Positions 986 to 64,000 of a stretch of 64,000 nucleotides of DNA are shown one piece after another. A program made the translations under genes and the position numbers. This DNA comes from Physcia stellaris (Eukaryota > Ascomycota > Lecanoromycetes > Caliciales > Physciaceae), in contig JABSSW010000016.1 in assembly GCA_018902385.1 (NCBI GenBank), positions 186,001 to 250,000 on the forward strand, written 5' to 3'. Numbering within the stretch: the stretch's first letter is position 1; the number at the start of each line of letters is the position of its first letter. The notes under the pieces are model-generated. The model made no database searches and was not told the DNA's origin. It saw only the letters and a list, made by a program, of their open reading frames with translations.

Positions 986-1798
986 GTCGCGAACAGAAAT
1001 TGATTAATTTACGAAGATTGCGAATCTTCGACGAGAAAACTTAAATGAGATTGACATTGTGACGTTGCATTGTGATTGCAATGTCTTGACATAATCTTGA
1101 CATTTTAACATTCTTTTCGCATTCAATTAGTGAAATTTAACGTGTTTTCACGCGATTTTTTCTTTTTCATTTCAATCATCATTATTTTATCAAATTTACG
1201 TGTATATGTGTATAGTACACAATCTATAAAAAAAAATATTTGATTATTCTTATTTGATTTTTTTGTCGAATCAAAAAATCAATTTTTTCGAAACAAAAAT
1301 ATCAAATTTTATCGCATTTTCACTCACAGTCATTTCGCGTGCACACAAATTCATGAAATTATCAAATTGTAAAATTAATTGAGCGCATTTCAACGCATCA
1401 ACAATCGCATTAATTCGAACAATATTGAAATTGTTATGAAATTTGAAAATAAAATGAATTTCGAATTCGTCGAATTTGTTTCGCAAATCAAAATTTTTTT
1501 GTTAAATTCGATGTTTTTATCAATATTTAATTCAAATTTTCAATCAAAAAATATATCATTGTATTTTGAAATTAACACGAACATCAAAACAATTCGAATT
1601 TATACAATTGTTTTGCATTTTGCACATCAAATATCAATTACATTCAAATTTGATTTGTTGAAATCAAATTATAAAACAAATGAAACGCATTTCAATGTAT
1701 CAAAAATAACGAAAATCAATTCATTATCGCAAAAATTCTGATCAATGTAAATTATCTGTTCGATTGAAATGTTCGTCAAATGATCATTTTTTGCAATT

Positions 1799-1881
<83 letters not shown>

Positions 1882-2672
1882 TCGATTTATTTTCACGAAA
1901 TTGTATCAAATTAAATTTTTCAAACATTTGCACGTTCGTTATGAAAAATTTTCTCGATTTCGATTTATGCAACAATGTTTGTTCGCGAAAACAAATCATC
2001 AAACACGCGAAAAAACGAAAAATGCGCGAAAAACATCGAAAACGAATTATTTTTTTTTTTTTTTTTTTTTTTGTTTTCGACGATTCAAATCATTTTTATT
2101 AAAATTTTTTTTATTGTTCGTAAACAATTTGCTCAAAAGCATAATTTTATTCAATATACACACGATATAAACAATGTCGACAAAAATTACGATATATCAT
2201 TTTCAATTCGACGTTTTATAAAAAACGTTTTTTTATTGAAAAAATTATTGAAAAATCGATAATTAACGTTTTGCAAAATTATTCAACATGAAATTATTGA
2301 ACAAAATCGAAAATAATTAAAAAACACGATTGACGAATATTTCGAAATTTTCGATCGTATCAAAAAATCACGATATCAAAACATTCGAAATCATTTGTTC
2401 GATATTTTACAAAAAAACATTTTTCGTCGATTCGATTCATTATATTTTCAAACATTTCACGACGATAACGACGAAAACGTCGAAACAAACATTCGTTTTT
2501 ATATTGAAAATTTTCGATCAATATTTGAATTCGAAACAAAAAAGAAAAATAATATCGATTGAATGTTTTTAAAACGTTTCAAAAAACGTAAAAAGTAAAT
2601 CATAATTGATTTTTTCAAAAATCATTCGATCATGAAATGAAATTGTTGAAAAAATCGAAAACGTTTTCGATA
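986..2672. other. AT-rich non-coding stretch left of the first LTR element
   Basis: Apart from the tetranucleotide tract I recognise nothing: no repeat partner elsewhere in the window and no protein signature. Open frames here are by-products of low C and G content. Confidence 0.5.
1797..1881. repeat. (ATTT)n microsatellite
   Basis: About 21 uninterrupted copies of the tetranucleotide ATTT/TTTA in AT-rich non-coding DNA, ending at ATCGATTT. Nothing suggests a telomere: the unit carries no G cluster. Confidence 0.95.
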
Positions 2673-2886
2673 TGAAATGTTATGCAAAAATATAATACTA
2701 TTACATAATTACACGAAAATATCGAAATGAAAAACAGTTACATGAAAATTTGACAAAACATATGTAAATAATTTGATTATAAACGAATTTCGATTTTATC
2801 ATTCGATGTGATAAAATATAAATGTCAATTTTAATGATTAATCAGATGTTAATTTCAAATGTTGAAATCGATACACGTTCGTCACA
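2673..2886 (-). repeat. LTR of element E1 (left copy)
   Basis: 214 bp, aligned over its whole length with 15,256-15,469. Plus-strand ends are TGAAATG and GTCACA. The A/G-rich tract next to it on the minus strand marks it as the 3' LTR of a leftward element. Confidence 0.85.
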
Positions 2887-2904
2887 TTATTTTTTGTTTT
2901 TTTT

Positions 2905-4420
2905 CAGTTTCGTTTCGAAACGATTAATTGATTTTTTTGTCGATCGACAAAACACGTAATTTCGATAATTTGTTCGTAAATGTATTGAATTCATAACGAA
3001 CGCGACAATCATGAAAACGTACAAAAATTTGAAATGAAAACGACGAAAACGACGAAAAAATTTTTTGCAAATTATTTGATTTTGTATTTGCGAAAACGAT
3101 TGCATCGAAATTTTAAAAAAATTTGCGAAAAAGTTTGCGTCTGAATCGAAATGTGAAAAAATTATTAAAACAATTGAAATATGCAAAAATATCGCGTTTT
3201 GTTATATGACAAAAATGTTTTTTTTATAAATTTCAAAACATGCATGCGATATTCATTAGTGATTAATACAAATACAAAATAGAATAAAAAAAAAATGAAA
3301 ACGTTTTCGAATTTTTGTTCGAAATTTGATTGCGAAACATGAATCATGATATTTGCAAATAAATGATATGATAAATTATTGAAAAATATCTGAAATTCGA
3401 AAATTTTGAAACAGATTGATCAAGACGAAAAAATTGTTCAACGTTTTGAATTTTTGATTTAAATAGAAATTCGTTTTTATCAAACTTTCGATGTGAATAA
3501 AAATATTTGTATTTTGATGACGAATGCAAATCTATGCGAAATATTTGAAATCGAAATTATTGCAATTGATAAAAAGATTGATTTGCAATCAATTCGCGAA
3601 AAATGCAAACGATGACGTAAATAATGAAATAAACAAACGATCGAGAATTTGTTTTGAATGTAATGAAAACATTAATGTAAACGTTGAATTCTTGCAACAT
3701 CAAATCGATTATACGATGAAACGAACAATTTCGTTATGTTAATAAAATCAACGCAACAACGATTAACGCATTGATATTTTTGCATATGCGAAAATTGATG
3801 TGTACATTGCATTCAACAAAACATCAACGTAATGAATTTTTTGAAAAATGATCAATTCATACAATTTTTCGCAAGTAGTTTCGACGATCAATTAATAGTC
3901 AAACAATTGAAAATTTTCGAAAATTTCAAATCGATTATATCATGAAACAAACAATTTCATGACATTAATAAAATCAACGTAACAACGATTAACGCATCGA
4001 TATTTGAACGCATGCGATAATCGATGTGTACAATTCATTCAATAAAACGTGTATGTAATAATTTTTTTGAAAAATAAATAATTTTTGCGAATTTTATAAA
4101 TAATTTCGTCGATCATTAATAAACAATTGAAAATCTTGTTGAAAATCTTGTTGATTTATTTGTATGTAACATTTTAATATTCGACAACAACGTCGAAACA
4201 AAAAAACTAAATGTGAAATAATAAAACATTAATGTAAACGTTTACTTTTCGTCTTTTTTCAGTTTCGTTTCGAAGTGACAAACGTGATTTTTATTGAATG
4301 ACACGATCAATGATCGAAATAACTTGTTCGTAAACGTTAATACAATTCATTGTTGCAATTGACACGACGAAAACGATTGCAAAAACAAAAAAAACTGAAA
4401 AAGATGAAAAAGAACGAGAA
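2905..4420. repeat. Internal duplications in the 3' part of E1
   Basis: Two kinds of repetition are visible. Sequence around 2,905-3,060 (TTTTCAGTTTCGTTTCGAA and what follows) recurs around 4,250-4,420, a duplication with about 1.35 kb period. Between them, 3,697-3,910 and 3,931-4,130 are tandem copies with a period near 233 bp sharing AAATCGATTATA and ACAACGATTAACGCAT. These are non-coding and lie between the LTR and the finger units. Confidence 0.6.
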
Positions 4421-5149
4421 TTAAAAAAAAAATTTCTGCAAAAATACGAAATTTCGAAAATTTCGATTTCGAAAAGTTTAAAATTTGCAAAAATCTGTTT
4501 TTGACGCAAAAAACATCTGTCGATTTGTATGATAAATTGATCGATTTTTCAAACAAATTTTCGTTGAAAACAATGCGAATTAATTTCGCAAACATGTGTT
4601 GATTCAAACTTTTCGATTTTGAATTTTTCGAATTTTGAATAATCGACGACTTTTGATTGATTGTAAATTTAAAATAAACGATGATTTGCATTTGATTTGA
4701 AAATGTTTGAAAAAACACGTTGTTTTGATTTTGAAATAAATTTTTTTTTTTGAATTTTTCATCGAACATTTCGAACAGATTTTCGATAATGAAATGAAAT
4801 TTTTCGAAAAAATTGAACATGATCGATCGAATTGACGAAAATCAAAACTTTGCGAAAAAAATCGTCGATTATGATGTTGTCGCAAATCAAATGATTTAAA
4901 ATTTTCAACATACATGCGATTCAAATCATTCATGATAAAATATAATTTCGAAATGTGAAAATGTTGATGTTTATTAACAAAAATTTGAAAAAATGAAAAC
5001 GAAAAAATAAACGAACAATTGATTAATAATTTCTTCATCGATTTTGATGTGAATTCGAATGTCGCGATCGTGAAATGTAAATTTTTGAAAATAAATCGCG
5101 AAAACATTTTCGCTGAAAATATCTGACTTGATGATGTTGCAAAAAAATA

Positions 5150-6330
5150 AATTAAACGAATTGTAAAACATGTAAAACAAACGAGCAAATAAATATCTTT
5201 TCGATATTACATGTAAATTCTGATGCGAAAATTCGAAAATTCAAATTTTTGACAAATTTTCGAGCATGATGTTCGCGTATATGATCGTGAAATTTATTAT
5301 TGAAATTGAAATTTTGTTTGTAACGTTTGCAAATTCGAACGCATATGACTTGTTGAACTAATACATTTTTCACGCGTTTTGACGAAATTGTTGATTTCGC
5401 GATCGAAAAATTCGAATTTTTCGACGAAACGAATTGCAAAAATATTTTCGTATTTGTTACAAATTTTCTTGATGTTGCAAAGAAATTTGACGATTTTTGC
5501 GAAAAAAACGAACATGCAATTGTTGATTTTTTCACTGTTTCGCATGTTGATTTGATTGTATTGATGAAAAAAAAAAATTTTTGACAAATTTCAAAATTTT
5601 GTGTTGATTGATATGTTCGAAAAATTTCTTATTGAAATCAAAATTTTGTTTGCATTGTTTGCATTTTGTTTGAATATGTGCGACTTTCTGAATCGATGAA
5701 TTTTTCATCGTTTTCGATATAATTACGAAAATATTTAACGAAAAATTCAAACGCGATGTTTTTAACTTTGAAAATAAATAAACAATACGAGTTCGAAATT
5801 TTGCTGATTTTTCGAAAATGAATTTCGAAAACTTTGCAATTGAAACGATTGTTGACTTTTTTTGCGATTTTGCACGTTAATTTGATCGTATCGATCAAAA
5901 AAATGAATTAACGATTGAATGTTTCAATGAATTGACTATTTCGAAAACATTGCAAATTCGATTATTTGTTTCTGTGATGTTGCAAATGCAACAAACGTTT
6001 TTAACGAAATCAAAAAATTGATAATTGTTGATTTTTCATTGTTTCACATATTAAATCGAATGCATTAATCGAAAAATGAAAATTTTTGACGAATTTCAAA
6101 ATTTCATGATTTCGAATATGATCGTATAATTTTTTGTTGAAATTGAAATTTTGCATGCAAATTTTGCAAATCACTCGAACGAAAATGATGTCATAATCTG
6201 ATAAATTTTCGATAAATTCTGATATAACATCGAATGTACTTGACTGAAAATTCGAATTTCTTAATGAAATATGTCGTAAAGACGTTTTTGAAAACGTTTT
6301 CGCTAAAATTTTATTGAAACGTTTCAACGA
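5150..6330 (-). pseudogene. Array of C2H2-like zinc-finger units inside E1 (fossil)
   Basis: On the minus strand at least three similar units of about 350-450 bp each carry a finger of the form C-x2-C-x4-(N)F-x-FN-(K)KF-x2-HI-x3-H, for example CKQCKQNFDFNKKFFEHIN near 5,640, CKICMQNFNFNKKLYDHIR near 6,120 and a related one near 5,290. Each is followed by an (I/E)LKFVKN-like stretch. Finger units of this type are known from gag-pol polyproteins of some fungal LTR elements. The array is broken in many places. Confidence 0.6.
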
Positions 6331-6721
6331 AATAAATTTCGATTGAATATTGAATCATTGAAAAACAAAATCACATAAACATTTCGACAATAAATTCAAC
6401 AAATTTGATTTGCGATATTGATGTCGACATTGTTGAAAATTTTGCAAAAAGTACGCGATTACATTGTACAATTCGAATTTTGATTCATTACACGTTGTTG
6501 AATCGAAAATATCGATATTTTGAAACGTTGATGTTGATTTGACAATTTGTTTTGTTTTCGAATTTTTTTGAATTCGTTTCGATTGACGATTTTCGCAAAC
6601 GTGATTTTTCATTTCTGTTGTTTTTGCGAAAAAAACGATTTTGATGAAATGAAAATTGATAATATCGTCACAAACTCGCTAAAAAAAATGTTTTCGTAAA
6701 AATTGTATCGAAATCGTGTAA

Positions 6722-6960
6722 TGAAATATCATGAATCGTGTTTGTATGATTGTATTGATTGACTAATTAGACGAAAACAATAAGTTTGCAGAAACAAATA
6801 AATACAAAATGTTGAAATTGCAAACAATGTGCGACGTCAAGTTTCAAATCACGTTAATCTCGACGTAAAATTAAAACATAATTCGTTGTTCGATCATATC
6901 ATATCAATTATTTATTTGTCAGACATTTGTCAAATTTATTTGTCAAACATGTTCGTAACA
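6722..6960 (-). repeat. LTR of Ty3/gypsy E2 (left copy, 3' LTR)
   Basis: 239 bp, ungapped alignment to 12,839-13,077. Begins TGAAATATCATG and ends GTTCGTAACA on the plus strand. Confidence 0.95.
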
Positions 6961-7672
6961 TTATTTTTTTTTTTCGCGAACGTCGTTTCGACGATTCGTC
7001 GTTGTTTCGAAACGAAAACGTTGTCGATTGTCTTGAATGAATTCAGAATTCGAAATTTTCACGATCATCATTTTTTGATTTTTTCAATATGTTGTATCAA
7101 TTCACAATTCAATAAAATCGAACAACAATTTCTGAAAATGTTTTTGACACGATTCAGTTCTTTATGCGACGTAAATTTTGACTGTAAACAACGTCGAAAC
7201 GATGATAATGAAATTTGAAACTGAAAAAAAAAATCTTGAAACGAACGAATGAAATCAAGATGAATTCAAATTCAATTGAAATTTTCAAATTTTAATCGAA
7301 CGTAATTTCAATGAATGTCAAAACGACGATCTTTTTTCGAAAACGACAACGATTCGCAAATGAATTTTGATCATCGATTTGAAAAACAAAAAAAATGATT
7401 TTGAATGATTTCGAATTTGCGACGATAAAATGAATTCGATAATAATCATTCATCACGTCACGAACATTATCGAATTCATCGTTATCGACGTAATATCAAG
7501 TTCGATCATGCGATCAATTTGATCAATTGACGCGATATTGAAAACGATCGTAATGATATCGAAATTGTAAAATGTCGTTCATTTTTCATTCGAAATTTTC
7601 GTTGATTACAACGAAATCGAATGATTCGTTGATTTGATTTTCGAAAAAATCACAAAAATTTTTGCGCAAAAG

Positions 7673-10620
7673 TCAACAATGAAACACATTATAAATTCGC
7701 ATTGTTTCAAATAATTCAAGCTGATAAAAATTGTTCATACGTTTTAACATTTTGTATGAATCAAACTTTTTGTCATCAAGTTTGTCGAATAATTTAGCGA
7801 TTTTGATGTTTCGTCGATTCAAAAAAACGTAATTTTTTTCGACGTATTCGACGATTTTGCGATGTTTGTTGATTTGTGTCGTCATGCGTTTTTGAGTTAT
7901 TTCGACGTGAACTCGTACATAATCGAGAATGTTTTGCATTGTGTTCGTGATGTTTTTCGTCTTAACGATCAAGAATCGCTTTTTTGTGATGACATACGAG
8001 ATAAAATTCGATGAAAAACTCATACGAAAATGAAAATTCTTGTTGACGAAAAACGATGATAATTCAGTGAATGCAAAAATTGCGTTATTGTTTGCAAATT
8101 CGATCATAAATAATCAGACGTTTCAATCGTTTTGCATGTAATTGCAATATTGTCGCAATTGTTTTTCGATGTTTTGATTGATTTTCTCGATTTGATCATC
8201 AATTTCTGAATGAAAAATCGTGAAAAATTTACATTTGATGTCGAAAATTCTGCAAAATGCTTGTCATACGAAAAACACGAATTGAAAATCTCGATCAAAT
8301 GTTATGAAAAAAAACAAATCATGAATACGAAACACGTATTGAATGAATATTTTTGTTGTGATTTCAACATTCGTGTTTTCGTTTTTCGCTGTACAAAATA
8401 CATAATGACGTTTTTTATTAAATTTGTCGATTATCGTGCAAATGACATTATGATCGTGAACGTCAAATAATTTCGTGATGAAATCAATGAATATATTCGT
8501 TCAACGTTGCAAAAATATGATCAGAAAAATGAATAATTCGTTTTTACGATTTTTGAAAATTTTAATTCGTTGACATTCGTGACAATTACGTACGTATCGA
8601 CGAATTGTTTTGCGCATGTTGAATCAATAATAATCACGACGTAAAAAATTTTTCATGCGATTAAATTCAAAATGATTCGATGCGAAAAATTCATGAATTT
8701 TTCTGAAAAAATCAACGAGCAAAAAAACATCGACGAACACTCATAATCGATTTTTGTAATATAAAGCATCGTTTTTTTTTGACAATCGCGTAAATTGATT
8801 TTATTCACAAAAATGAAATTTTGATTAAATGTTTCACGATATGTTCGACAATCGTCGTTTGTTTTATTTGCGACGAGAATTCGTTCGTAAATTGATTCGT
8901 CAAATTCGACGACATGAATTTCGAATCGTTTTGAAATGAACAACATTTGTTTTTTATATTGATGTCGTTTATCGTTATCGTTTTTAAATCGTGAATTCGA
9001 CATGCGAATCAAAACGTCTGTTTTAACGTTTTGAATTCTTGATTGAAATTGAATGACGATATTGAATTTCGATAAAATTTCTGCTCAACGAATTTGACGA
9101 AAAATTAACTTTTTCGAAATTATGAAAGTTTTCAAATTTTTGTGATCGATGAAAATTTTGATCGATTCGTCAATTTTTTCGAATTTTGAACGTCAATGTT
9201 TTAAACAACGAATGATGATCAATAATTTTTTGTCATAAATTTCATAATTGCATTCGATTGAAATCATGTTTCGACTGTAAAAAACAACGAAATGTAAAAT
9301 TTTTTCGTCATCGTATTGCGATAACATTTTCGCATTGACGTAATTTGAAAAATCGATTTTTAAAATGATTTGTTTGATTTTATCGTAATGACGAAATATG
9401 AAAATCTCGATCATCGTTTTTTTGAATAAATTGAAAATCTTTTCGATTTTCGTAATTCATTCGAAATTTACGAGTTTTTTGATCATGCGAATGAAAATTT
9501 TGATTTTTTTCGAAAAATCGCGAATGAAACGTCGATAAAAATTGACGAAATTCACGAAAATTTGAATTTTTTTGAAATTGATAAAACGTGTTCAATCAAT
9601 TATGATTTGCATTTTTTTTGAATTCATGCGAAAATCATTTATCGAAAATATAACGTTCAAAAAAATCATTTTTTTTTTGAAAAATTCGCATTTTTCAATA
9701 TTCATTTGTAAATCGATTTTTTTGAATTTTTTCAACATTGCTCGAACGTGCATGATATTTTTTTTTTTTTTTGAATTTGCTGTAAATGAATATGTCATTC
9801 AAATAAATTTGACAAAACTCGTTCAAAAATTGAACAAAAAATCATTTATGTAATGTTGTCAACTTGCAAAATCGTTGATTAATTCAAAGAATAATATTCG
9901 ATATTTATACGATTTCATAAAAGTGACGAACGTGATGAATTTTTCATTTTTTTTTTCATTCATTCGAAGTTTATTGAAAGCTGATATGATATTCAACTTG
10001 ATCAAATATTTGCAATTTTGAATTTTGATCAAAGTTTTTTCGATCAAAAAAATAAAATATCGATTGCGTTTCGTGATGTGATTGAATCGACGATAATTCA
10101 CACACAAACGTAATTGATCGTTGAATTTGATCGCAAATAAAACAGATAAAACATATATCGTTTGATTAGATACGATAAATTTTTTTTGCAAATTTTTTTT
10201 CAAATACTTTTTCAGTTTTCTAAATTTGAATTCGAATAGAAAATACATTCGATTGCGAAACAAAAAATTGCTATCGCTTAACAATTCGATTTTATGATCG
10301 TATAATTTATAAAAAAACAATTTGATGATTTTTTGAAAATCAAATACTTTTGATAAATGACGAAAGTATTTTGACATTTTTTTCATTATGCGTTCGAATA
10401 TCGATTTGACTTGTTCGTGTTTTAGAATTTTTTGATCATGACAGACGATTTCTAACGATTCAAAATTCGTTTGTAACGTTTTGAACGCGAAATCGATTTG
10501 ATTGATCGTGATGAAAAAACATTGAACGTTTTGTTTTCGATTTTTGACATCGATCAACAAACAAAAAAAAATTGCATCAATCATTGCGATATTCATCGAA
10601 TCGTCAAGATTCAACTTTGA
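7673..10620 (-). pseudogene. pol region of Ty3/gypsy E2: RT, RNase H, integrase (fossil)
   Basis: Family signatures remain readable in this order on the minus strand. Reverse transcriptase, 9,859-10,614: LRLCVNYRRFNHITKRNRY and AFNKLRMNE. RT thumb and the start of the connection, 9,380-9,798: LQMNIEKCEF. RNase H, 9,193-9,414: LSQYDDEKILHF and CNYEIYDKKLL. Linker to integrase, 8,653-9,012: RILVANKTNDDCRTYRE. Integrase C-terminal region, 7,673-8,107: QANKHRK-like and (L)NRRNIK, ending MRIYNVFHC. These match the known Ty3/gypsy pol layout. Many interruptions; no function is expected. Confidence 0.9.
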
Positions 10621-11499
10621 AAATAACGAAAATTCTGATTGTTGTTTTTTCGTTTTTCATCGTTTATTACGCTGATTTTTCAATTTTTTTTTCTTGACGA
10701 ATGTCGTTTTCGTAACAATCGTAATATCAATTTCTGAATTATTTGATTCGATTGCTGACGACTCGTCGTCGATATCGATTTCTGAATGAATTGAGCATTC
10801 GGAACATTTCGAGTCGATTATATTTGATTCGTTTTCAACAATAAAAAATAAAAACTTGATTTTGAAACGAAACAAAATGATATATCGAAATTCTATCGTC
10901 GTTATGTGTTTTGTATTATTTTTCGACGATAATTTTGCATCGCGACGTCAATTAGATACATTTCATCGACGATTTGTTTTGAAAGTTTTTAAACGACGAA
11001 TCTGCATCGTTTAATTGAATATGCTGTCGTGATGATTGCATTTGAACGATTTAAAAATCAATTTATCGTAAATCATGTTTAATATAATTTCATGTCTGTT
11101 CATTCACGATTTTTTTAAAATTATCGAATGATTATCGAAACAATGATTAGCAAAAAAACGATCAATTCGAAATATAATTTTATCGTCAATTTGAAATATA
11201 TCGCGTGAATTATAGAAAAGACATGACGATCGTCGAATTCAGTCAATGATTTCGATTTCAATAAAAATACGAATTTCATGCTCAACATGTTGCATACAAA
11301 TTGCGCGATTTTTTTATCAATGAACGCATAATCGATTGCATCAATGTTTATTAAAGTTTTTAGTTTATGTTTATTATCGTTGAATGATAACGTACAAATA
11401 ATGATTAAAAATCGCTTGATGAAAAAATCAAACATATTATCATCGTGAATAAAAGAAATTTTTAAACATTCATCAATCGCGTCTTTGACGTGAATTGTC

Positions 11500-12811
11500 A
11501 ATTTTTCGAATCAAATTCGCTCGAATCGATATCAAGATTCAATTGATGTATTTGTAATTTATGTCATTGACGCTTTTGAAACTTGTTGACGTTGAAACAA
11601 AACTTTCAATTGTGATCGAGTTTTTCACACGTGAAACATTTGTTCGTGACGATCAATTGATCGATGATCGAATCATGCTTATGATCGTTTTTGAATTTGA
11701 CGAAAAACGTCGACGTAATTGATTTAACAAACGAAATTGCAATCGAAACAGCAAAAATCGTTTTGAAAAACATTAAAATTGATTTTTTTGAGTTCGAATT
11801 CGAATTTTTTTTTTCGAATGCTGATCAGATCGTTGTACATTTGTTAAATGTCATTCTTTCACGCGAACAAAATAAAATGATGACGAAACGAATTGTTCAA
11901 AACTTGTTTCAACGACATGATGAATTTGTCAATTAAATTCTTCATCAACGTGAACTGATCGAAATTGATTTGAATATTCAGACGATGAAAATTCGAATAA
12001 AAAAACTGAAAATTTTGAATGTCGAACATGATCAAGTTTCGATATTCTCGACGTACGTTGCGTTGATGATTTGAATTTTCATTTGAATCGAAATTGAAAA
12101 CACGTTCAAAGCGACGAATTTCATTCAATTTGATCAAATCGTCATATTCAATACGTTTGTCAACGAGTTGATTCATGTTTCGTTTTTTTTTTTTTCGAAC
12201 GTTTTAAATCTGTCGCGTATTTGCTCAAGAATATTATCGATATCGAATAGATTTTTCTTTGAGTTTTGAACAACTTGACGAACTCGTGAAAATTCTCTAG
12301 AACGATCAAATATTTGTTTCGATCGATGCGTAAATCATTGAACACGTTCAAAAAATCGTCGAAATGATGCTGAACTCAATACTTCAATTGACGAACAGTT
12401 TTTATGTTCAGAAAATGCGTGACATCGTCGTTCTGATTCGACACAACGTTTGAAATAAAAAAAAATTGACGAAACTTGTAGCGAATCGTGAATTTTTCAT
12501 CGATTTCGTGAATTTCGTTCAGCATTTGCTCAACGTTTTTTTGTATCTCGTCAATATTCAGAATTTGACGAAATGAATTGAGTGAAGTTGTTTCATGATG
12601 ATTGCGAGTCATCTCGAGAAAATAAGAAAAAAAAATAGAAAATCGTCGTTTCGTCGTTTTTTATCGTCGAAAATTTCGTCGTTTGCGTGTAAATTCGATT
12701 TGTAATTACACGATTTTCGTCGTTTGTCTCGTCAAAAAAACTTTTCGTCGTTTGTTTTTCACGAAAAACTTGATCGATTTGAAATTTTATTTTTGAACGC
12801 TCGCGTATCAC
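11500..12811 (-). pseudogene. gag region of Ty3/gypsy E2 (fossil)
   Basis: Gag-like helical, charged stretches lie at 12,376-12,811 and 11,859-12,351, and a CX2CX4HX4C zinc-knuckle signature (CFTCEK...DH...C) remains near 11,590-11,640 on the minus strand, placed between gag and pol as expected. The region is broken many times. Confidence 0.75.
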
Positions 12812-12838
12812 GACGAGCGATAAAAATTGAAAACTTAT

Positions 12839-13077
12839 TGTAATATCATGAGTCGTGCTTGTATGATTGTATTGATTGACTAACTAAACGAAAACAATAA
12901 GTTTGCAAAAACAAATAAATACAAAATGTTGAAATTGCAAGCAATGTGCGACGTCAAGTCTCAAATCACGCTAATTTCGACGTAGAATTAAAACATAATT
13001 CGCTGTTCGATCATATCATATCAACTATCTATTTGTCAAACATTTGTCAGATTTATCTGTCAGACATGTTCGTAACA
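12839..13077 (-). repeat. LTR of Ty3/gypsy E2 (right copy, 5' LTR)
   Basis: 239 bp, begins TGTAATATCATG and ends GTTCGTAACA on the plus strand. Followed by TGAAA, matching the TGTAA before the left copy at four of five positions. Confidence 0.95.
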
Positions 13078-15255: not shown

Positions 15256-15469
15256 TGAAATGTTATGCAAAAATATAATACTATTACATAATTACACGAG
15301 AATTTCGAAATGAAAAGCAATTACATGAAAATTTGACAAAACATATGTAAATGATTTAATCATAAACGAATTTCGACTTTGTCATTCGATATGATAAAAT
15401 AAAAATGTTAATTTTAATGATTGATCAAATGTTGATTTCAGATGTTGAAATCGATACACGTTCGTCACA
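15256..15469 (-). repeat. LTR of element E1 (right copy)
   Basis: Partner of 2,673-2,886, same length. By orientation it is the 5' LTR. The similarity stops sharply at both ends. Confidence 0.85.
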
Positions 15470-53123: not shown

Positions 53124-53896
53124 ATGTTAGCACAAAACGAAGAACCTATTTTCCCTGCTGAACGCTCCTACGCCTATGCAGCAGGCAGCAAGACTATTAG
53201 CCGCAAAGCTGGCGTCACCAGCCTTCGTTCATCCGCGGCCGCCTTACCTGCCATCCCTACCTCTGGTCCTACTTCTACGTTTAAACCTAGGGAGATGATA
53301 CCGTCTACCACCCGCTCCTACGCCCAAGTAGCCAAGGCACCCAAAGCGAATCCAAATCCAAAAAGCTTGACACCACCAGTAAAGAGCGCAGCACCACTGG
53401 CACCATCAACCCCAGCTGTAATGAACGCGCAAAACCCATCAAAGGCGATGGGGCGATATAGAATACAGCAAAAACTCTCGCTACTCGACAAACCCCAGCC
53501 CCTCAAGCAGAAGCCAACGCTGCATCAGCACCGCTCCTTCCAACTCGCAACCCACAGCGCAAAGCAAACAAAGCACAGCCCGAACCCACCGTAGCATTCA
53601 AGGCTGATGCTTCGGCGCATATGGAACCTTACAGCGAAGCCATTCTGGACTGGATGGCCCGTGATCCACCCAGAGTGCTCGAGTTTGAGGAGGAGGACAT
53701 TCCTTCAAACGTGCAAGCTTATAATGATCGGGTGAATATGGAGGTGTTGAAAGCGATGAGGCGCTTTCGGAATCCGAGGGTCTTGAAATGGGTTGATGAG
53801 ATCCCGGAGGAGGCTTCGTGGGAGGTGAATGTGTGGGATTCGGAAGACGGGCGGTTTGCCGCTTTTGCGAGCGATGAGTCTGAATTGAATCTATGA
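53124..53896 (+). CDS. Hypothetical protein, about 242 aa, two exons
   Basis: Exon 1 53,124-53,417 (98 codons) and exon 2 53,462-53,896 (145 codons with stop), joined in phase 0 by a 44-bp intron (GTAATG...GATATAG). The intron is short and has no clear branch point, so a small indel is an alternative reason for the change of frame. The ATG follows an A/C-rich leader (CACTCTCCAACA). The first 150 residues are low-complexity, rich in Ala, Pro, Ser, Thr and Lys, with the repeated motif RSYAYAAG (14) and RSYAQVAK (64). The C-terminal 90 residues are acidic and folded-looking: EPYSEAILDWMARDPPRVLE, DRVNMEVLKAMRRFRNPRVL, EEASWEVNVWD. No signal peptide or membrane span. Family not recognised. The gene ends about 100 bases from AT-rich block 3. 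Confidence 0.65.
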
Positions 53897-54109
53897 AATG
53901 GAGATAGTGAATCTACTGAATATATAATCCTTTATTAGAGCCGATGTGTGTTGAGACATTGTGATTCCGTGATTAAGCTTCTGATTTTTGATCTGTATAT
54001 GTGATTGTAAATTAGAAAATTTTTCATGATTCTGATTGTCGAGCATTCGAGAGATAATTTATCTTGTTTTTCAAGTGATTGATCAATCTATCGAAATAAT
54101 CAAAGAAAA

Positions 54110-54662
54110 CGCGTTAATGTTGCGTACTTTCTTCATTGCTATGTACAAAATTCTTGATGTTTTGAACATGATCGATTTGCAAACAATGATTTTGCAAAAC
54201 AAAATGATTTTGCAAAATCGATTTCGTTGAACAAAATGATTCAACAAAACAATTTTCAAAATTTAATTATTTTTTCTGTTTTTGCGACTGAGTTACGAAA
54301 CGAAAAAAATTTTCAAAAAAAATGAAAACGTCGAAAAAAATCAAAAACAAAAAATGAATGAACGAAACAAAAAAAAAAACGAAAAATGAAAAATGAAATG
54401 AATGAAACATTGATTTTTTATTTAATTAAAAAATCAATTTTTTCAAATTTTTTTCATTTCGTCATTTTTGCATTAATATTCATGTTTAATTTGAACGAAT
54501 TAATGTTGCGTATTTTTTTCATTGTTATGTACAAAATTTTTGATGTTTTGAACATGATCGATTTGTAAACAATGATTTTGCAAAACAAAATGATTTTGCA
54601 AAATCGATTTCGTTGAACAAAATGATTCAACAAAACAATTTTCAAAATTTAATTATTTTTTC
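54110..54662 (-). repeat. B1-A2-B2 end of DIRS-type copy 2
   Basis: B2 (54,110-54,276) and B1 (54,497-54,662) are about 166-bp copies sharing TTAATGTTGCGTA and GTTTTGAACATGATCGATTT; A2 (54,371-54,501) lies between them. B1 and A2 overlap by a few bases at AACGAATT. Most B1/B2 differences are CT-to-TT. Confidence 0.88.
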
Positions 54663-55203
54663 ACAATTTCAAAACACGTCGAAAAACGACGTCGTCGTCA
54701 AAAAACGAAAAAAAAAACAATTTAATCGTTTTGATGATATCGCGATATTTGAAAAATGTATTTTTTGTTGTTTTCGATATACAACAAAAACGTTTCGAAT
54801 TTTCATTTTTTTAAAAATTTGATTAAATCGTCAAAAACATTCGCATTGCGAATTTCAATTGCAACGTTTCGACGAAAAAAATGATTTGAATAATGATTTT
54901 CGAATTTCAAATTTATAATCGCGTTTTGTAATACGATGATGACGTAATTTGCATTGAAAAATCTTGATTGATCGATTTGAAATAAAAAAAAAACATTGAA
55001 ACAAAAAAACGTTCGAAAAAATTGCGTAATGAAATCAACGCACAAACGATATCGTCAATAATCGCAATGAATATTGAAATTTTTTTGCAAAATAAATCGA
55101 TTTTCGAAACAAAAAACGTCAAAATGAAATAATCGTCGAAAAAAATCATCGACGAACGAATAACGTTTTATTTGTTGAATTCGAAAATACGATCAATATT
55201 TGA

Positions 55204-55515
55204 TTAAATAAATTCATCAATACGCAAAAAATTTGCAAAAATCAAACAAAATGCGACGTGCAACGTTGCATTTTGTTTAATACGAATATCGAAAAATTGC
55301 AAAATATTTAACAAAATATCACGAATAATATTTTTTTTTTCACGTTTTTCGTTTTTTTTATATATACGTTTGATTTCATCGATTTCGCGTTGCAACAAAA
55401 ATTCGTTAAAAACGTTAAAATCGAAATATTTTCGATTCACGCAAACAAAACGTAATGTCGTGATGTAAATTTTAATAATTTTCGATTTGAATCGTCGTAT
55501 GTTCAATGAATTCAT
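55204..55515 (-). pseudogene. Tyrosine recombinase region of DIRS-type copy 2 (fossil)
   Basis: SKIIKIYITTLRFVCVNRKY, EFLLQREIDEIKRIYKKN, NIIRDILLNILQFF and TLHVAFCLIFANFLRIDEF parallel the stretch at 49,934-50,250 almost position for position. The remains extend leftward to about 54,800 without a clear end. Broken. Confidence 0.8.
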
Positions 55516-56191
55516 TCAATCGTTGATAACGAAAATAAAATAAAAAATGTTTGAATGTTATCAAATGCGCAAAATTTCACGTATGATTTAATTGCGAAAC
55601 TATATATTTTGCGAATATTCGAAATCAAATTTTATTATAAAAAACGTGTTGTCATTTTGTTCAACGAAATTTGAACGTATCAATATTTTGAAACATCGTC
55701 GCTGAATGCAAAATTTAGTTCGAGAATTAATCATGACGAATTTGCAATTGTGAATATTCGTCAACGATTTTATCGTGTTTATCACGTGAAAATAAATCAA
55801 TCAAATGATTGAATTTCGAATTTAATCATTTCATTTCGACGATGATATCGTAAAAAACAAACAAATGACGATGTTTCGAAACGACGTCATTGTTGAATCG
55901 TGTATCGTGTTTTGATGAATTCAAAAACAAACGATTTGATTATCGCAATGAATAATGATTTTGTTGTTTTCGAAATGAAATAATCATTGACGCAAAATTT
56001 TCAACACGATTTTCATTTTTTTGATTTGAATATCGAACGTGCGATTACGATAACGAGTTGAATATTGTAAATTGAAATTTTCGAAAAATTCGTTTTGACG
56101 ATTTCGAAATCAAAAACTTTTTATGTTTCAATTGTTTGAAACATTCGTTCAAATGTCATTCGAAAATCGAAACGAAATCGTTCGCAAAATT

Positions 56192-57200
56192 TTAACGTCG
56201 TTTCATTGAAATAAAAACGTTTGTTATCATTGCAAATTTAAACGCATTGTTTCGATAATTTTGCAAAATTTGTTGACGTTTTGAACGATGTAAAATGAAA
56301 TTAAAAAAACGTTTCGAAACGACGATTTTCGTGCAAAAAAACAAAAAATTTACGAAGAAATCGATTTGACGATACGTGAAAAACTTTTTGATGAAAATTT
56401 CGTTAACAAATTTCATTGTTTTCGTCAATTTTTTTGAAAAAAGTCTGATTTTCATGATTTCGTTGTCGAGTTTAATGTCAAGAAATTCGAATTTTGTGTC
56501 AAATTTTTTTTTCTCGTTTGTTTCGAAATCGAAATTTTGACAAACATATTGTTACATCTTTTTGAATGATTTCGAATTCGTAAAAAGTTTCATGATGATC
56601 AAAAAATCGTTCAAATAATGAAAAATTATGCGAAATTCGCAAATCACGATCAAAATTCAATGCAACGTTTTAATAAATAAATCGAATAAAAAAAACAATA
56701 CATAAATCGAACGATAAAAACAACTTCATATAATATATTTTTATTCATTCGAAATCGAATAATCAACGATTCAAAAAAATTATCGAAATGTGTTTGAATG
56801 CATTAACGAAATTTTCTTTGAACATAACAACATCACGTTTTTAAAATATGAATATCGCAATGATTTCATCGAACGTGACGTATTTCAAAATTTTTACATT
56901 TTCGATAATGTGTTCATTGATTGAATTATTTTTAAAATACGAAAAATCGTGAATACGTTTTCATTCGTCGTCGTGTTTGAAAATCAAATTTAAAAATAAA
57001 CAAATGTAATGTGAAAAAAAAAACATTTTTGACATTTGTTGAACAATTCGTTATTTGTTGAAATCGATCGTAAATATATCGAAAATTTCGTTAATCAAAC
57101 GATGATTGATGAAAATCAAAAAATTTTTATTTTCGATTTATTCGACGTTAACGTTTCGTTTAATAATATTAAACAATTTCGAAACAAAATGTTGATCGAA
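56192..57200 (-). pseudogene. Reverse transcriptase region of DIRS-type copy 2 (fossil)
   Basis: The clearest part is MKIRLFSKKLTKTMKFVNEI followed by FVNFLFFCTKIVVSKRFF (56,192-56,455), equivalent to 48,960-49,131 in copy 1. Upstream (to the right) the remains are too mutated to assign residue by residue. Confidence 0.65.
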
Positions 57201-57941
57201 ATATTTTAATAAATAAAATTTTCATGTTTTGATTTTCAACGACATTTTGATTTCGAACATGAAAACGTTGTCGAAAACGACGTCATATGAAAATTCTTTC
57301 GACGATTATTCGATTGATATTGACATAATCATTTTGAAAAAAAATCAAAAAAAAAAATCAAAAGAATACGCATCGATTAATCATTTAACGATTTTAATTT
57401 CGAAACATTCGAATTTGTTATAATTTGATTGTTAACATTTGATGCAAACATTTTTTCATTTGCAAAATTCAAATTCGCAACGATTGTTGTTATTGAACGC
57501 GTGACAAATTTCGTTATTGATTATCAAACGATCGAATTTTTTTGATCGTGCGTGAAATGAAAAACGATTGCGAATTCGTCGATTTTTAATTAAATTCGAT
57601 GACAACGATATTTGAACATTCATTCGATAATATCGTATTTAATAATTCAATTGATAGCGATATTTTGATTAATGCGTATAATTCGAATTAAATTTTTTTC
57701 ATGTCAAATCAAAATCGATGATCACGTTTTGTAAATGTATGTTTTCAAAATGCGAAAACGATATTGATTTATAACGTAATTCAATTCGTATCGAATGTTC
57801 GAATGCGCAAAATCAAACATTATATTGCAATATATTTTCAACGACGTCAACAAAATGTGAAAATTTTTGAAAATTTTCGCACGTGTATCGACGAAAACGT
57901 TGAAAATCGTTCAAAAAAATTTTTTGAAAAATTTTTGAAAT

Positions 57942-57987
57942 TCAACGTGTCGTTGTATATTTTTGAATATACGCAACGACACGTTGA
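57942..57987. repeat. 46-bp near-perfect hairpin
   Basis: CAACGTGTCGTTG-TATATT, a short TTTG loop, then AATATA-C-GCAACGACACGTTG. About 19 base pairs can form with one small bulge. It lies between A1 and the coding remains of DIRS-type copy 2. Confidence 0.8.
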
Positions 57988-58807
57988 AAAATTTTTTTCA
58001 ATTTTCGAATATTCGAAATTGTTGTTTTGCAAAAAATTCGTACGAACTTTTTTACGACGAAAAATCAAAAATTCGATAAATCAAAATATGAATTGATAAA
58101 ATCGTGCGCAAAAAACACGTTTTGAAAATAAAAATTTTGAAAATCGAACACAAAAAACACGACGAACAAAACGTTGAAAAAAAAAAAAAAAAAAAAACGT
58201 ACGTTGAATAGCGAAATTGATATTCAATTGTTTTTTCATTTTTTTTGATTTTCAATTGACGACGAAAATCAACATGATATTTTTTCAAATTTTGAATTTT
58301 TGTCGTTTTCGAACGTGATTATCGAATTTGAAATTGATCGAATGTGTCGTTGTCGTTTACGTCGATGAATTCGAAATTGTCGTGAACGTCGAAATCGTCG
58401 AAATTTTCGATTTGATTTTCGAAATATTCAGACGAAAAAAGATTTTGCGACGAAAATTGACGAGTTTTTGAAAAAACGAACGTTTCGAAATGAAACGAAA
58501 ACGTGTATTTTTGTCAATTCGAATACGATTTTTATTTCGAATGTGATTCGTTTGCGAATAATTTGTTTGAATTTGAATGTATCGTTGTCATTGATTTTTT
58601 TGATGACAACGACATTGTTTTTGTTTGAAACGAAATTGAATTTGATGTTCATATTGCGACGACGAAAAAACAATGAAATCGAATTTTAATTATGTCGAAC
58701 GAAATGTTACATCAAAAAATGTACGAAAATCGAAAAATTGAAATATGTTACATCAAAAATTGATGTAAAAATTTTTACAATTGATTTTTGCAAATATTTG
58801 CAAAAAG

Positions 58808-58935
58808 AAAAAACGAAAAATGAAAAATGAAATGAAAAAAACAATGATTTTTTATTTAATTAAAAAATCGATTTTTTCAAATTTTTTTCATTTCGTCATT
58901 TTTGCATTAACATTCATGTCTAATCTGAACGAATT
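58808..58935 (-). repeat. Split direct repeat A1 of DIRS-type copy 2
   Basis: Matches A2 (54,371-54,501) over about 128 bp, including the near-palindrome GATTTTTTATTTAATTAAAA and CATTTCGTCATTTTTGCATT. Confidence 0.88.
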
Positions 58936-59433
58936 TAGAATTTAAAAATGAATTATTTCGTAACGTTTTTAAAATTTCATTGTCAAATTCAATCTTTACT
59001 AAAATGCAAAAATGATGAAGAAATTTCTGATTGTGTTCATTTTAAATTAATCGCGACGAATCAAAAACTTGAAAAAATCAAAAATTTTATTCGAAAAAAT
59101 CGAATCAAATCTGAAATGTAAAATTTGAAATTTGTTTTGACGTTAAATTCAAATTTTTCATTTTAGTGTCAAATTTAAACTCAAATCGACATATTCGATT
59201 TGAAATTTGTTTTGACGTCAAATCAAACTTTTTCTTGAATTTGAAATTTGATTTAAAAAGTTTGATTTGACTTGAAATATTATTTATAAAAAATAATAAA
59301 AATAGATTTTTTTTTTACAAACTCTATTGAAAAGAAAAAAATATTGAAAGAAATTTCAAACATAAATAATGAATAATGAATTTTGATAATGCAATTTGAA
59401 AAAAAAAAATTGATTATTATTCACAAACAAATA
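58936..59433. other. AT-rich spacer with degenerate short repeats
   Basis: GAAATTTGTTTTGACGT recurs at about 59,125 and 59,200, with related AAATTTGA-type stretches nearby. No coding seen. Confidence 0.5.
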
Positions 59434-62400
59434 ATAATGCATGATAATAATGCATTTTCGTTATTTAATCAAATTAAAAATCGAATATTATGAAATTTGT
59501 ATCGTTCGTATTTTCGTTGATTTCGAATTCGTTTTCGTCATCGAAATTTTTCACGTTGTTTTTTTTTTCGTCATCGTCGTCGTTTTTTGCATTTTTTTTT
59601 CTCTTGATCGCATTGAAAAATTCGATTTTAATATTTCGATTTTTCGCATTGTGCGAAAAAACAAAATTTTAATTGTTTTTCGCATTTTTTTTATCGCGTT
59701 AACAAAACTCGTCGTTTTCAATGCGCGAATTTTTTTATTATTATAAAAAACGCGTTGCGCGATCAATTTGATCATTAAATACAAATATTTTTTTATTGCG
59801 TTTTGCGTTCGTTTAATGTTTTTATCGTTTTGAGATTGAAATGAATCATCAATGAAATCAACAAATTTTAATATTTAATATTTATTGATTATTGCGAAAA
59901 TTCGAAATTAATTGTTTGATATATGATTTCGATTGCATTTTTTTAATATTGTTTTGTCGTGTTTGTTCGTCGAATTTTTTTTTGTTTTGTTGATAAATTT
60001 CATTTTTCAAAAAACACGTTAAAAATTAATTAAAAATCGCAATTTTTATATGCATTATTCGATTGCATTATCATGATTGTCGTTTTCAATACGAACATCG
60101 AACATTTTTTTTTTTGTCATTTTTTTCAAAATTTTACGATTTTTTTCATTAAATTCAAATCAAACAACAATTTTTATCAAATTTTTTTGAATTTGATCAC
60201 AACGACATTATCGACATTTTGTGTTTTGTAAAATTTGATTTGAATTTTCGATCAATTTTTTTTTTCGCGATTAACGACATTTTTTGAATTCGTGAAATAA
60301 ATTTTAACAAATGTAAATTGTGCGAATTCGAACATTTTGATAATAAATATCAACACGATAATGCGACAAAATAATGCATTATTTTTGAACAATGTTCAAA
60401 ACGTACGTCGAATATGAATCAATATCAATTAATCGATAAAATTGAAAACAAATTTGTGATTGAATTCATCAACAAACGTGTTGCGATAAACAATTGAATT
60501 ATATTTGAAAACGAAAAATGAATCAAATTTGAAAATTCAAATTAATGTTTATTCGTCAAATTTGTGAATTTGTGTGCAATGAAATTGATCAACATCGATA
60601 ATGCGATATAATCATGCATTCAATTTTGAAACGAAAAATAACGAATATTACACACGAAAATAATCAAATTTAGCAAATGATTTATCGATATCGAAAAAAA
60701 AAAAACTGAAAATGTTATAAAAAATCGATCGAAAATTGTCGACACGCGATTTTTGCGCTTATCGAAAAAATTTAAACGTCGAATTTAAAAACAATATTTC
60801 GATGCAAAAAATTTAATCAAACATTCAACACGATCGCATCGATATTTTTGCAACGTTTGCAAATAATGCAAATTTGTATCGCGAAAAAATGAATTTATTG
60901 ATTGATGAACAACAATCGTTTTATCGCATGTTTAATTTTGTAATCAATGACAATTTTATTAAATTTTCATTTGTAACAACAATAAATAACTAAAATAATG
61001 CACGAGAATAATGCATAAATTAACAAAATTTAAAATATTTCGACGTTCATTCAAAGTTTAAAAATTGAAAAAAAAATTTTTCAAAAGATTTTCGTGTTCA
61101 AGAATTCGTGAATTTTGTTTTTCAAAACGTTCGATCAACAATTGTTATTGTTATGACGATAAATGAAAACGATGAAAATATTGTTGAAAATATTTCAACG
61201 AAAAATGTGAACATTGATAAAAATAATAATGCAAAAAAATAATGCATAAATTAACAAATGATAAAACGTTTTGTTGAAAAAATTGAAATGTTTGTCGCGT
61301 TTTCGATCAATATTTCGTCGATCAATTGAAACATTTTTGCGAACGTTGTTAAAAAGTTTAAATCGACAAACGTTGTTGAAATGTTTGTTGAATTTGCTAA
61401 TAATAAAAAATTTGAAAAAGCGCGAAATGATGAAATCGTTGATATTAATAATCGTAATAATTTTTCGTTTTGTAAATCGAATAATGCATGACGATAATGC
61501 ATAAATTAACAAATCATCGCAATTGTTGAAAATGAAAACATTCAAAAAAAATTCGAAATATCAACATTTCAAATGTTTGAAAATCGAAAAAATGTCGAAA
61601 ACGATGAATCGAATGAAAAATATTTGATAAAAATAAAATCAAAATTGCGAACAAATTCGATATTCATGATATCGTCATTATTTATATTGAGTTCGAAAAT
61701 GATAATCAAATTTTAAATAAATCGAATAATGCGTCAAAATAATGTACAATTTCACAAATCGAAACACACGTCATGAAAAAAGCAAATCGACAAATAAATA
61801 ATAACATTAATGTGAACAAAAACAAAACGTCGATCACAAAACGACTAAAAATGAACATGATCGCGTTTAAAATTTTCGCATTCAAATTTTTGCGTTCAAA
61901 TTTTTTGCGTCGAAATTTTTCGCGTTCAAATTTGTCAATAAATCGAACAAAAAATCAATCGCAAAACGTTTAAATTCATTAATTAAAAAAATCGCGAACA
62001 AATCGATAATGCATTCAAATTATGCGTTATCGAATATTGATTAACACATCAATAAAAACACAAACGAACAAAATTCGAAATAATCGCATTGCGCGAAATC
62101 AAACGTTTTCAAAAAACGATTGAATTTTTAATTGCAAAAAAATCGTTCGTCAAATTTGTAAAAAAAATGATGCAAAACATAAAAAAAAATATCAAAATTC
62201 AAACATCGATTTTGAAATTTTGCAAAAAAATATCGAAACGTTTGTCACAAAAATGTTTAAAAATAAATCAAATGCATTATTTTTGCGCATTATTTTGTTG
62301 ATTAATTTTTATAAAATAATTTATGCAAAAACGATTCATGCGAAACGAATAATTGTTCAAATGAAAAATATTTATTTTATTCGAAAAATTTTGAAAATGT

Positions 62401-63727
62401 TTGTGAATAACAATGTTTCAATCATTTAAACACAATGTTATTTTTGTTGAATAACTAATTTACATAATTTGAATTCGTGTTTGAATTACTTTTTATATCA
62501 ATATTTGTCATGCGTGAATTGAAAATTAAATGATAATACATGATAATAATGCATTTTCGTTATTTAATCAATTTAGAAATCGAACATTATGAAATTTTTA
62601 TCGTTCGTATTTTCGTTGTTTTCGAATTCGTTTTCGTCATCGAATTTTTTTCACGTTTTTTTTTTTTTTTTCGTCATCGTCGTCGTTTTTTGCATTTTTT
62701 TTTGATCGCATTGAAAAAATCGATTTTAATATTTCGATTTTTCGCATTGTGCGAAAAACAAAATTATTAATTGTTTTTGCATTTTTTCATCGCGTTAACA
62801 AAATTCGTCGTTTTCAATGCGCGAATTTTTATATTATTATAAAAAACGCGTTGCGCAATCAATTTCGTAATTAAATACAAATATTTTTTTATTGTGTTTT
62901 GCACGCGTTCAATGTTTTTATCGCTTTGCATTTAAAATGAATTATTAATAAAATTAACAAATTTTGACAAATTTTAACATTGAAAATTCATCGATTGTTA
63001 CGCAAATTCGAAATTTGTCGTTCGATGTATAATTTTGATTGCATTTTTTTTGATATCGTTTTGTCGTGTTTGTTCGTTCAATTTTTTTTTGTTTTGTTGA
63101 TAAATTTCATTTTTCAAAAAACACATTAAAAATTAATTAAAAATCGCAATTTTTATATGCATTACTCGATTGTATTATCATGATTGTCGTTTTCAATACG
63201 TGCATCGAACATTTTTTTTCATTTTTTTTCAAAATTTTACGATTTTTTTCATCAAATTCAAATCAAACAACAATTTTTATCAAATTTTTTTTGAATTTGA
63301 TCACAGCGACATTATCGACATTTTGTGTTTTGTAAAATTTGATTTGAATTTTCGATCAATGTTTTTTTTTTTCGCGATTAACGATATTTTTTGAATTCGT
63401 CGAATAAATTTTAACAAATGTAAATTGTGCGAATTTCGACATTTTGAAAATAAATATCAACACGATAATGCGACAAAATAATGCATCATTTTTGAACAAT
63501 GTTCAAAACGTACGTCGAATATGAATCAATAAAAAATGATCGACAAAATTGAAAACAAATTTGTGATTGAAATCATTAACAAACGTAATGCGATAAACAA
63601 TTGAATCATATTTGAAAACGAAAAAAAAAACAAACGTGAAAATACAAAATAATGTTTAATCGTCAAGTTTAAAAATTTATTTGCAATAAAATTGATTAAC
63701 ATCGATAATGCGATATGATAATGCATA
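59434..63727. repeat. Recurrent paired ATAATGC box
   Basis: A box of two ATAATGC-type heptamers whose starts are about 11-16 bases apart recurs at about 59,434, 60,052 (inverted), 60,358, 60,598, 60,995, 61,226, 61,481, 61,726, 62,006, 62,274 (inverted), 62,533, 63,465 and 63,705. From 60,995 to 62,533 the spacing is 230-280 bp. Three of the boxes are followed by the same AAATTAACAAA. The sequence between boxes is not obviously repeated, apart from the large 3.1-kb duplication. Confidence 0.75.
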
Positions 63728-64000
63728 CAATTTTAAAATATTCACAACGTAAATGATGAAACGAAAAATAACGAATATTACACAAAAAAATAATCAAATA
63801 TGCGAAATGATTTATCAATATCGAAAAAAAAAACTGAAAATGTTATAAAAAATCGATCGAAAATTGTCGACACGCGATTGTTGCGTTTATCGAAAAAATT
63901 TAAACGTCGAAATTAAAAACAATATTTCGATGCAAAATATTTAATCAAACATTCAACACGATCGTATCAATATTTTTGCAACGTTTGCAAATAAAACAAA
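59434..64000. repeat. Long direct repeat, period about 3.1 kb, running off the window
   Basis: The sequence from 59,434 to about 60,870 recurs from about 62,532 to the window end at 64,000 with small indels and scattered transitions (offset 3,099 at the start, about 3,126 at the end). At least 1.43 kb is duplicated. Either a tandem macro-repeat or two long LTRs of an element with a 1.66-kb interior; no coding is recognisable in either part. Confidence 0.85.

Follow-up and report, generated by a model that had tools for sequence, protein, structure and literature searches.

A 64,000-nucleotide stretch of the genome of the lichen-forming ascomycete Physcia stellaris (contig JABSSW010000016.1; C16:186001-250000 of a 43,974,083-base assembly of 147 contigs; hereafter the window) is made up of AT-rich blocks and intervening DNA of ordinary composition. 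An earlier interpretation of the letters alone, the sequence-only reading, held that these blocks had decayed through a process resembling repeat-induced point mutation (RIP) that strikes cytosines followed by a pyrimidine (CpY) and spares CpA and CpG. The locus raises two questions: whether such a process exists, and what carries it out. Our data leave practically no doubt on the first: repeat-confined, CpY-specific C-to-T mutation is real. To the second we give a probable answer, namely a RIP-like defence in which repeats would be recognised and their CpY sites mutated via a RID/Masc1-class methyltransferase pathway with a preference for a 3' pyrimidine.

Loss of CpC and CpT from AT-rich DNA

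Dinucleotides were counted on both strands. In 986-21,300 of the window, CC made up 0.00%, CT 1.01%, CA 6.18% and CG 5.66%; in 54,000-64,000, there was no CC, and CT, CA and CG stood at 0.45, 5.99 and 5.90%, respectively. The corresponding values for CC, CT, CA and CG in the gene island at 22,000-38,500 were 6.04, 6.57, 6.83 and 5.30%. The AT-rich blocks are therefore nearly devoid of CC/GG and poor in CT/AG, as had been described. At 39,000-48,000, CpC was almost gone (0.23%) and CpT was reduced to about half (3.38%), indicating that CpC goes before CpT. For 7,201-7,680, where the earlier count had been zero CC/GG and about 35 CG at about 28% G+C, we obtained 0 CC, 0 GG and 36 CG at 28.5% G+C. 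Independent expectation gave about 9.3 CC, 10.2 GG and 9.8 CG, and the observed values lay beyond those of 5000 shuffles (maximum CG, 21; minimum CC+GG, 7). The claimed over-representation of CG held in relative terms, with observed/expected ratios of 2.7-4.7 in one-kb bins of the saturated blocks, because CpC and CpT disappear and CpG and CpA stay. In absolute terms, CpG and CpA are hardly enriched (for CpG, 5.7-5.9% versus 5.3%): CpG is preserved rather than gained.

Beyond the window, 20 further 10-kb stretches were taken at fixed places in the genome. Five of them adjoin the window and small contigs are over-represented, so the sample cannot be read as a measure of how much of the genome is decayed. 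Of the 264 one-kb bins analysed, 64 came from the window and 200 from these stretches. The 50 bins with at most 25% G+C averaged 0.00% CC, 0.51% CT, 5.67% CA and 5.15% CG, and the 134 bins above 44% G+C averaged 5.70, 6.64, 6.96 and 5.29%; gene-rich DNA thus has no shortage of CpC or CpT. Across decayed bins, CpG frequency was 5.15-6.43%, versus 5.29% in gene-rich bins. Only 3/122 bins with at most 36% G+C exceeded 1% CC or 4.5% CT; two straddle block borders in the window and the third lies in L023. The CpY signature is present in every AT-rich stretch sampled.

Standard RIP indices were applied with the cut-offs used in PMC10998396 (TpA/ApT of at least 0.89; (CpA+TpG)/(ApC+GpT) of at most 1.03). 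Pooled over three bin classes with at most 36% G+C, TpA/ApT was 0.39-0.48 (0.68 in gene-rich bins) and (CpA+TpG)/(ApC+GpT) was 1.26-1.48 (1.29 in gene-rich bins), so decayed bins fell on the wrong side of both cut-offs. With TpA not raised and the CpA index not lowered, these indices score the decay as no RIP. A CpC index, (CpC+GpG)/(TpC+GpA), was 0.000-0.039 in low-G+C bins versus 0.789 in gene-rich bins, and a CpT index, (CpT+ApG)/(TpT+ApA), was 0.025-0.208 versus 0.997. In the most decayed 2.5-kb bins (L021, L010 and L022; about 19-22% G+C), TpA reached 7-10% and CpA and CpG were slightly down, which is a slow second phase of decay.

C-to-T change in aligned repeat copies

A genome search with the reverse-transcriptase profile PF00078 gave 527 candidates, 150 of which were scored, and 20 stretches of 2.6 kb were fetched around chosen matches. 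L027, of a gypsy-type family, is undecayed (52% G+C), its reverse-transcriptase and RNase H stretches lying in different frames. We compared it with six decayed copies (L033-L037 and bases 3,301-5,100 of L023); L031 and L039, which belong to another family (identity to L027 of about 0.55), were kept out of the counts. C-to-T change had occurred at 1712/1750 CpC, 1547/1815 CpT, 149/1728 CpA and 78/1594 CpG sites, corresponding to hazards of 3.83, 1.91, 0.09 and 0.05, respectively. The order of contexts is CpC > CpT >> CpA > CpG. Classical RIP, which favours CpA, and CpG-methylation decay, which removes CpG, are both rejected by these counts, and the earlier claim that the pattern reverses the two is upheld. 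So is the sparing of CpG; that of CpA holds to first order, and slow CpA loss appears in the oldest copies. The sequence-only reading had proposed to tabulate C-to-T changes by the next base in repeat alignments and to look for an equal CpC/CpT shortage in genes. Both checks were made on samples of the genome and neither overturned the reading: the main contexts were CpC and CpT, not CpA, and gene-rich DNA was not short of CpC or CpT.

Each decayed copy carried 423-712 C>T/G>A changes, 18-29 reverse transitions and 5-13 transversions over 1.7-2.6 kb, which places the C-to-T load far above background divergence. Both strands were mutated, as seen in L033 (C>T 282/603, G>A 366/694). Transitions from C:G to T:A on both strands thus far exceed other substitutions, as in RIP. 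The 5' base had little effect at CpC, CpT and CpA; among CpG contexts, GCG was low (4/539) and ACG high (23/229). CpA followed by a pyrimidine was changed at 102/747 sites versus 47/981 when followed by a purine, a small additional pyrimidine effect.

A second family gave the same order of CpC and CpT over CpA and CpG: from L032 to L022, change was found at 93/94 CpC, 214/223 CpT, 33/316 CpA and 13/348 CpG sites. Three further comparisons started from references that were themselves decayed. From L042 to three copies, the counts were CpT 319/450, CpA 103/892, CpG 61/897 and CpC 5/9; from L040 to two copies, CpT 182/264, CpA 104/567, CpG 90/628 and CpC 10/10; and from window 39.4-51.3 kb to L009, CpT 99/141, CpA 113/570, CpG 70/591 and CpC 3/7. 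CpT leads here also, with few CpC sites left to judge. At sites where at least one copy kept CpT, the copies differed at most of them in 12/12 decayed pairs (72/100 for L033/L036), as expected from separate hits on each copy. Window 9802..12082 and L021 were split between C and T at 71/77 CpT, 55/287 CpA and 9/273 CpG sites.

In the 150 scored reverse-transcriptase matches, the in-frame stops were TGA 250, TAA 33 and TAG 3, and 10/150 matches had no stop. Such an excess of TGA is what loss of TGG through CpC predicts, since a TGG codon becomes TGA when CpC is mutated on the opposite strand; mutation at CpA would instead yield TAA and TAG, from CAA, CAG and TGG.

The decay is tied to repeated DNA. 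Window positions 55,001-57,000, in the most decayed block, recur at at least 41 other places in the genome, nine of them nearly full length with 89-92% identity; for 34,001-36,000, in the gene island, no second place in the genome was found. Matches between window segments and other sampled loci, counted at E 1e-40, covered 11,462/20,300 bases of the 1101..21400 block and 5,459/13,300 and 5,313/9,800 bases of further decayed segments; they covered 0/17,100 bases of the island at 21401..38500 and 0/2,200 of that at 51801..54000. On the samples, decay is therefore confined to repeats, as in RIP, with one exception, the nearly undecayed pair L028/L029 considered below.

The sequence-only reading had extended the decay over 986-64,000. 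This stands for the AT-rich blocks; DNA at 21,401-38,500 and 51,801-54,000 is normal, and 40,601-47,900 is only partly decayed. Segmentation was based on the density of CpC/CpT/GpG/ApG per 100 bp, which was 1.0-2.1 in saturated parts versus 22-25 in normal DNA. Along this one contig, saturated DNA passes into normal DNA over about 0.1-0.7 kb. The features of the window, each with its basis, are as follows.

About 1-1,000: normal DNA (segmentation).
1101..21400: AT-rich block with CpY-saturated decay, milder at 12,201-13,100 and 14,201-15,100 (segmentation, dinucleotides).
9802..12082: repeat copy, 92% identity to part of L021 on C70 (BLASTN).
9859..10656, minus strand: remnant of a retrotransposon reverse transcriptase, open, with no Pro, Gly or Trp and with His, Gln and Arg kept (translation, composition).
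21401..38500: gene island of 49% G+C, normal in its dinucleotides (segmentation, dinucleotides).
26393..27235, minus strand: open reading frame with a GRF-like zinc ribbon, inside the gene island (Pfam PF23549, E 5.7e-11).
38501..47900: partly decayed repeat DNA, about 33% G+C (segmentation, dinucleotides).
39,482-40,835: repeat with a copy in L009 (BLASTN).
40,101-40,600: short saturated stretch within the partly decayed DNA (segmentation).
47901..51100: CpY-saturated repeat, 91% identity to a segment of L009, which lies on the window's contig (BLASTN, segmentation).
51801..54000: small normal island flanked by decayed blocks (segmentation).
54201..64000: most decayed block, 0.8 CpY per 100 bp (segmentation).
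59191..63095: repeat copy, 87% identity to part of L021 (BLASTN).
62,528-64,000: match to 59,429-60,872 within the window, 89% identity (BLASTN).

The nearest matches of the remnant at 9859..10656 are reverse-transcriptase-like reading frames, some with PF00078; the remnant itself matched no Pfam family at E 0.01. A long run of the tetranucleotide TTTA lies at 1800-1880, inside a decayed block. An Rfam search of the window at gathering score returned no match. Across the genome, scoring of 39 out of 2644 candidates gave a single 5.8S rRNA match (G000:C41:45899-46052); the assembly may have collapsed the rDNA array or left it out.

Candidate enzymes and rival explanations

Matches to PF00145 lay at three genome loci, L001 (C6), L002 (C3) and L003 (C5). 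According to PMC6709928 (2019), proteins of the Masc1/RID group are marked by PCQ, by a motif VI in which EQT or EET replaces ENV, and by a recognition domain that is short. L001 (C6:791557; 513 aa after two introns) and L003 (C5:499307) carry these marks. Motif IV reads SPPCQSFSPA in L001 and SPPCQFFSDA in L003, and motif VI reads EETFGLL and EQTSGLL, respectively. Their target-recognition domains, counted by eye from motif VIII to the RPFT/RDLT motif, with the exons of L003 joined by hand, span about 71 and 78 residues, close to the 80 aa or so of the class. L002 has SPCQGFSQ and ENVLGMA in a long open frame of 1118 aa; by motif and length, compared without any named DIM-2, it looks like DIM-2. 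The methyltransferase search suggested at the outset thus produced a DIM-2-like gene and, in the same genome, two RID/Masc1-class genes, L001 being of the EET and L003 of the EQT type. In a tree of 56 rows (53 chosen of 239 listed matches and the three own proteins, without a named N. crassa RID or Masc1), L001 grouped with a Heterodermia protein and environmental proteins in a part that also holds Eurotiomycete DmtA, L003 fell on another branch, and L002 lay far out; L001 and L003 both fell on the RID/Masc1/DmtA side, away from DIM-2, with weak support for the deep forks. One protein of this fungus is 72% identical to its nearest named relative, which comes from Heterodermia aff. obscurata.

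In the RIP-like defence that we favour, repeated DNA would be recognised, probably during the sexual phase, and its cytosines would be mutated through a pathway that relies on a cytosine methyltransferase of the RID/Masc1 class, one that would favour a pyrimidine in place of adenine as the 3' neighbour. Dependence on the 3' base would be expected of a C5-methyltransferase. Either L001 (EET) or L003 (EQT) would be the most likely carrier of the preference. The earlier proposal of an enzyme or pathway with CpY preference fares well as a description of a pathway, but that any one of the three methyltransferases is the actor is something we infer; that a RID-class enzyme performs the mutation seems to us fairly probable.

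The best surviving alternative, which we consider unlikely, is that repeats are methylated at CpY by a DIM-2-type enzyme and the methylated cytosines are then deaminated, without a RID-class enzyme. The 1118-aa reading frame of the DIM-2-like gene on C3 and one Pre-SET (DIM-5-like) match on C37 are compatible with it, and in Zymoseptoria, Dim2 promotes C-to-T change in repeats (PMC8016269). By the same account, however, Zymoseptoria Dim2 prefers CpA for mutation and 5-methylcytosine is almost absent from CT, which is the opposite preference.

Somewhat less likely still is that 5-methylcytosine in CpY-methylated heterochromatin deaminates slowly and spontaneously, in which case the decay would be an effect of age rather than of a burst. 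Copies of intermediate decay exist (L032; window 38,501-47,900), and CpA loss grows in the oldest pair (174/446 sites split). Against this stands the change of about 98% of CpC sites in the six copies of the L027 family, compared with their 5-13 transversions per 1.7-2.6 kb. A CpC rate so far above background favours an enzyme-driven process; a very strong methylation-driven mutator would be a less likely cause.

Editing of retrotransposon cDNA or single strands by a DNA cytidine deaminase, as by APOBEC3, is disfavoured and very improbable. PF00383, the cytidine-deaminase family, has eight matches in the genome. Editing of the cDNA strand should leave a one-sided pattern, yet both strands of L033 are alike. 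The context that matters, moreover, is 3' of the cytosine and the 5' base counts for little, which is unlike AID/APOBEC enzymes. APOBEC-like hypermutation was rejected on both grounds, strand bias and 5'-base context. Separately, the best cytidine-deaminase-family match, L047 (C64:178666-179121), has four in-frame TGA codons at a G+C of 0.48 and with normal CpC; these TGAs point to a broken gene or to an intron rather than to CpY decay.

We give hardly any credence to a compositional peculiarity or assembly artefact without mutation, for which no favourable evidence turned up, since base-by-base alignments show directional C-to-T change at defined sites and saturated DNA gives way to normal DNA within a few hundred bases on one contig. 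Least credible of all is ultraviolet damage to a lichen growing in sunlight: both CpC and CpT are dipyrimidines, lichens are light-exposed, and a 5' pyrimidine goes with more change at CpG (51/826) than does a 5' purine (27/768), but that difference comes mainly from the low GCG value, CpA shows no such rise (5'Y 78/955, 5'R 71/774), TCG (19/441) compares with ACG at 23/229, and gene-rich bins are unaffected, so that the 5'-context counts refute ultraviolet damage in its simple form.

Several points weigh against the RIP-like defence with a RID-class enzyme. L028 (C5:1165700-1168300) and L029 (C12:59500-62100), gypsy-type copies that are 95% identical over 2.6 kb, are almost undecayed; a strict repeat-sensing process should have mutated them. 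Their C/T splits (60/667 at CpY; 29/637 at CpR, where a purine follows) show only about a twofold excess, a signature that is weak at best. They lie about 18 and 60 kb, respectively, from a contig end, and may be recent or protected. In the oldest pair, window 59,191-63,095 and L021, CpA loss is appreciable (174/446 CpA splits; 32/364 CpG). Eurotiomycete DmtA proteins also have EET, so EET alone is no predictor of CpY. The DIM-2-like gene could act in place of a RID-class enzyme.

Relation to known systems and significance

Classical RIP, as in Neurospora and other Pezizomycotina, shares with the decay described here C:G-to-T:A change that affects both strands and is confined to repeats, the proximity of AT-rich blocks to normal genes, and genes of the RID and DIM-2 classes. 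It differs in its target, which is CpA there and CpY here, where TpA is not raised and the CpA index is not lowered. RIP that uses CpT is also on record. PMC4352252 lists CpT ahead of CpA for both Magnaporthe oryzae and Botrytis T4. CpT is also favoured in some Colletotrichum truncatum families (PMC6180176), strong in Anisogramma (PMC10998396) and ahead of CpA in changes to Neurospora Tad1 (PMC2621366), and CpT-to-TpT is the dominant form in the alignment controls of PMC7882544. Given the last two reports, use of CpT alone is not new. In these CpT-using systems, Sclerotinia among them, CpT-to-TpT is a major context as it is here, but CpA too marks the decay, whether in the same element families or in others, whereas in P. 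stellaris CpA is nearly spared and CpC comes first. The decay of basidiomycetes and Tuber likewise has a non-CpA context; it targets CpG (PMC4352252), the dinucleotide best preserved in P. stellaris.

Cladonia rangiformis is likewise a lichen-forming fungus with RIP, very AT-rich blocks of transposable elements, and RID and DIM-2 homologues (PMC12542154); its transposable-element DNA peaks at about 16% G+C, and the main text of that paper does not use the word 'dinucleotide'. According to the kingdom-wide survey PMC12543289, RIP-like defences have CpA preference in common. The literature on RIP thus contains cases with CpA, with CpT beside or ahead of CpA, and with CpG. We found no CpC-first, CpA-sparing case in the open literature; subscription work on ascomycete RIP contexts could hold one.

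A protein search with the decayed reverse-transcriptase reading frame of the window returned 810 proteins. Among the best 120, which were examined, 70 had at most 1.5% Pro+Gly+Trp with His and Gln kept (1.6-8.4%), as expected from CpC loss without CpA loss. The query itself lacks Pro, Gly and Trp, which biases the search toward such matches; 50/120 exceed 1.5%. Some of the Pro/Gly/Trp-poor matches come from JGI/NCBI samples and are 41-46% identical to the query. As a lead, this suggests that CpY decay is spread more widely than this fungus. No DNA of relatives with the same signature was found in viral contigs (3 scans of 8) or in prokaryote genome contigs (2 of 2).

Together, these data describe a process that works like RIP but neither favours CpA nor registers on the standard indices; it is best regarded as a variant of RIP. 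The mechanism that we infer as the best is a RID-class enzyme whose preference for the 3' base has changed. More tentatively, and as a possibility that we would not yet call probable, lichen-forming and perhaps other ascomycetes may have a distinct CpY-specific branch of RIP, carried by the EET-type L001 with a new 3'-neighbour preference and unseen because common indices score it as no RIP.

A version that takes CpC first and nearly spares CpA means that the target rule of RIP can be swapped, and it offers a natural comparison for finding the feature of RID-class enzymes that reads the 3' base. Genomes of this kind would escape surveys that rely on the TpA/ApT and CpA indices. The chemistry of inactivation is altered as well, in that TGG codons turn into TGA stops and codons for Pro and Gly disappear, in place of the conversion of CAA and CAG to stops. 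Finally, the dead repeats keep their CpG, which could still be methylated there.

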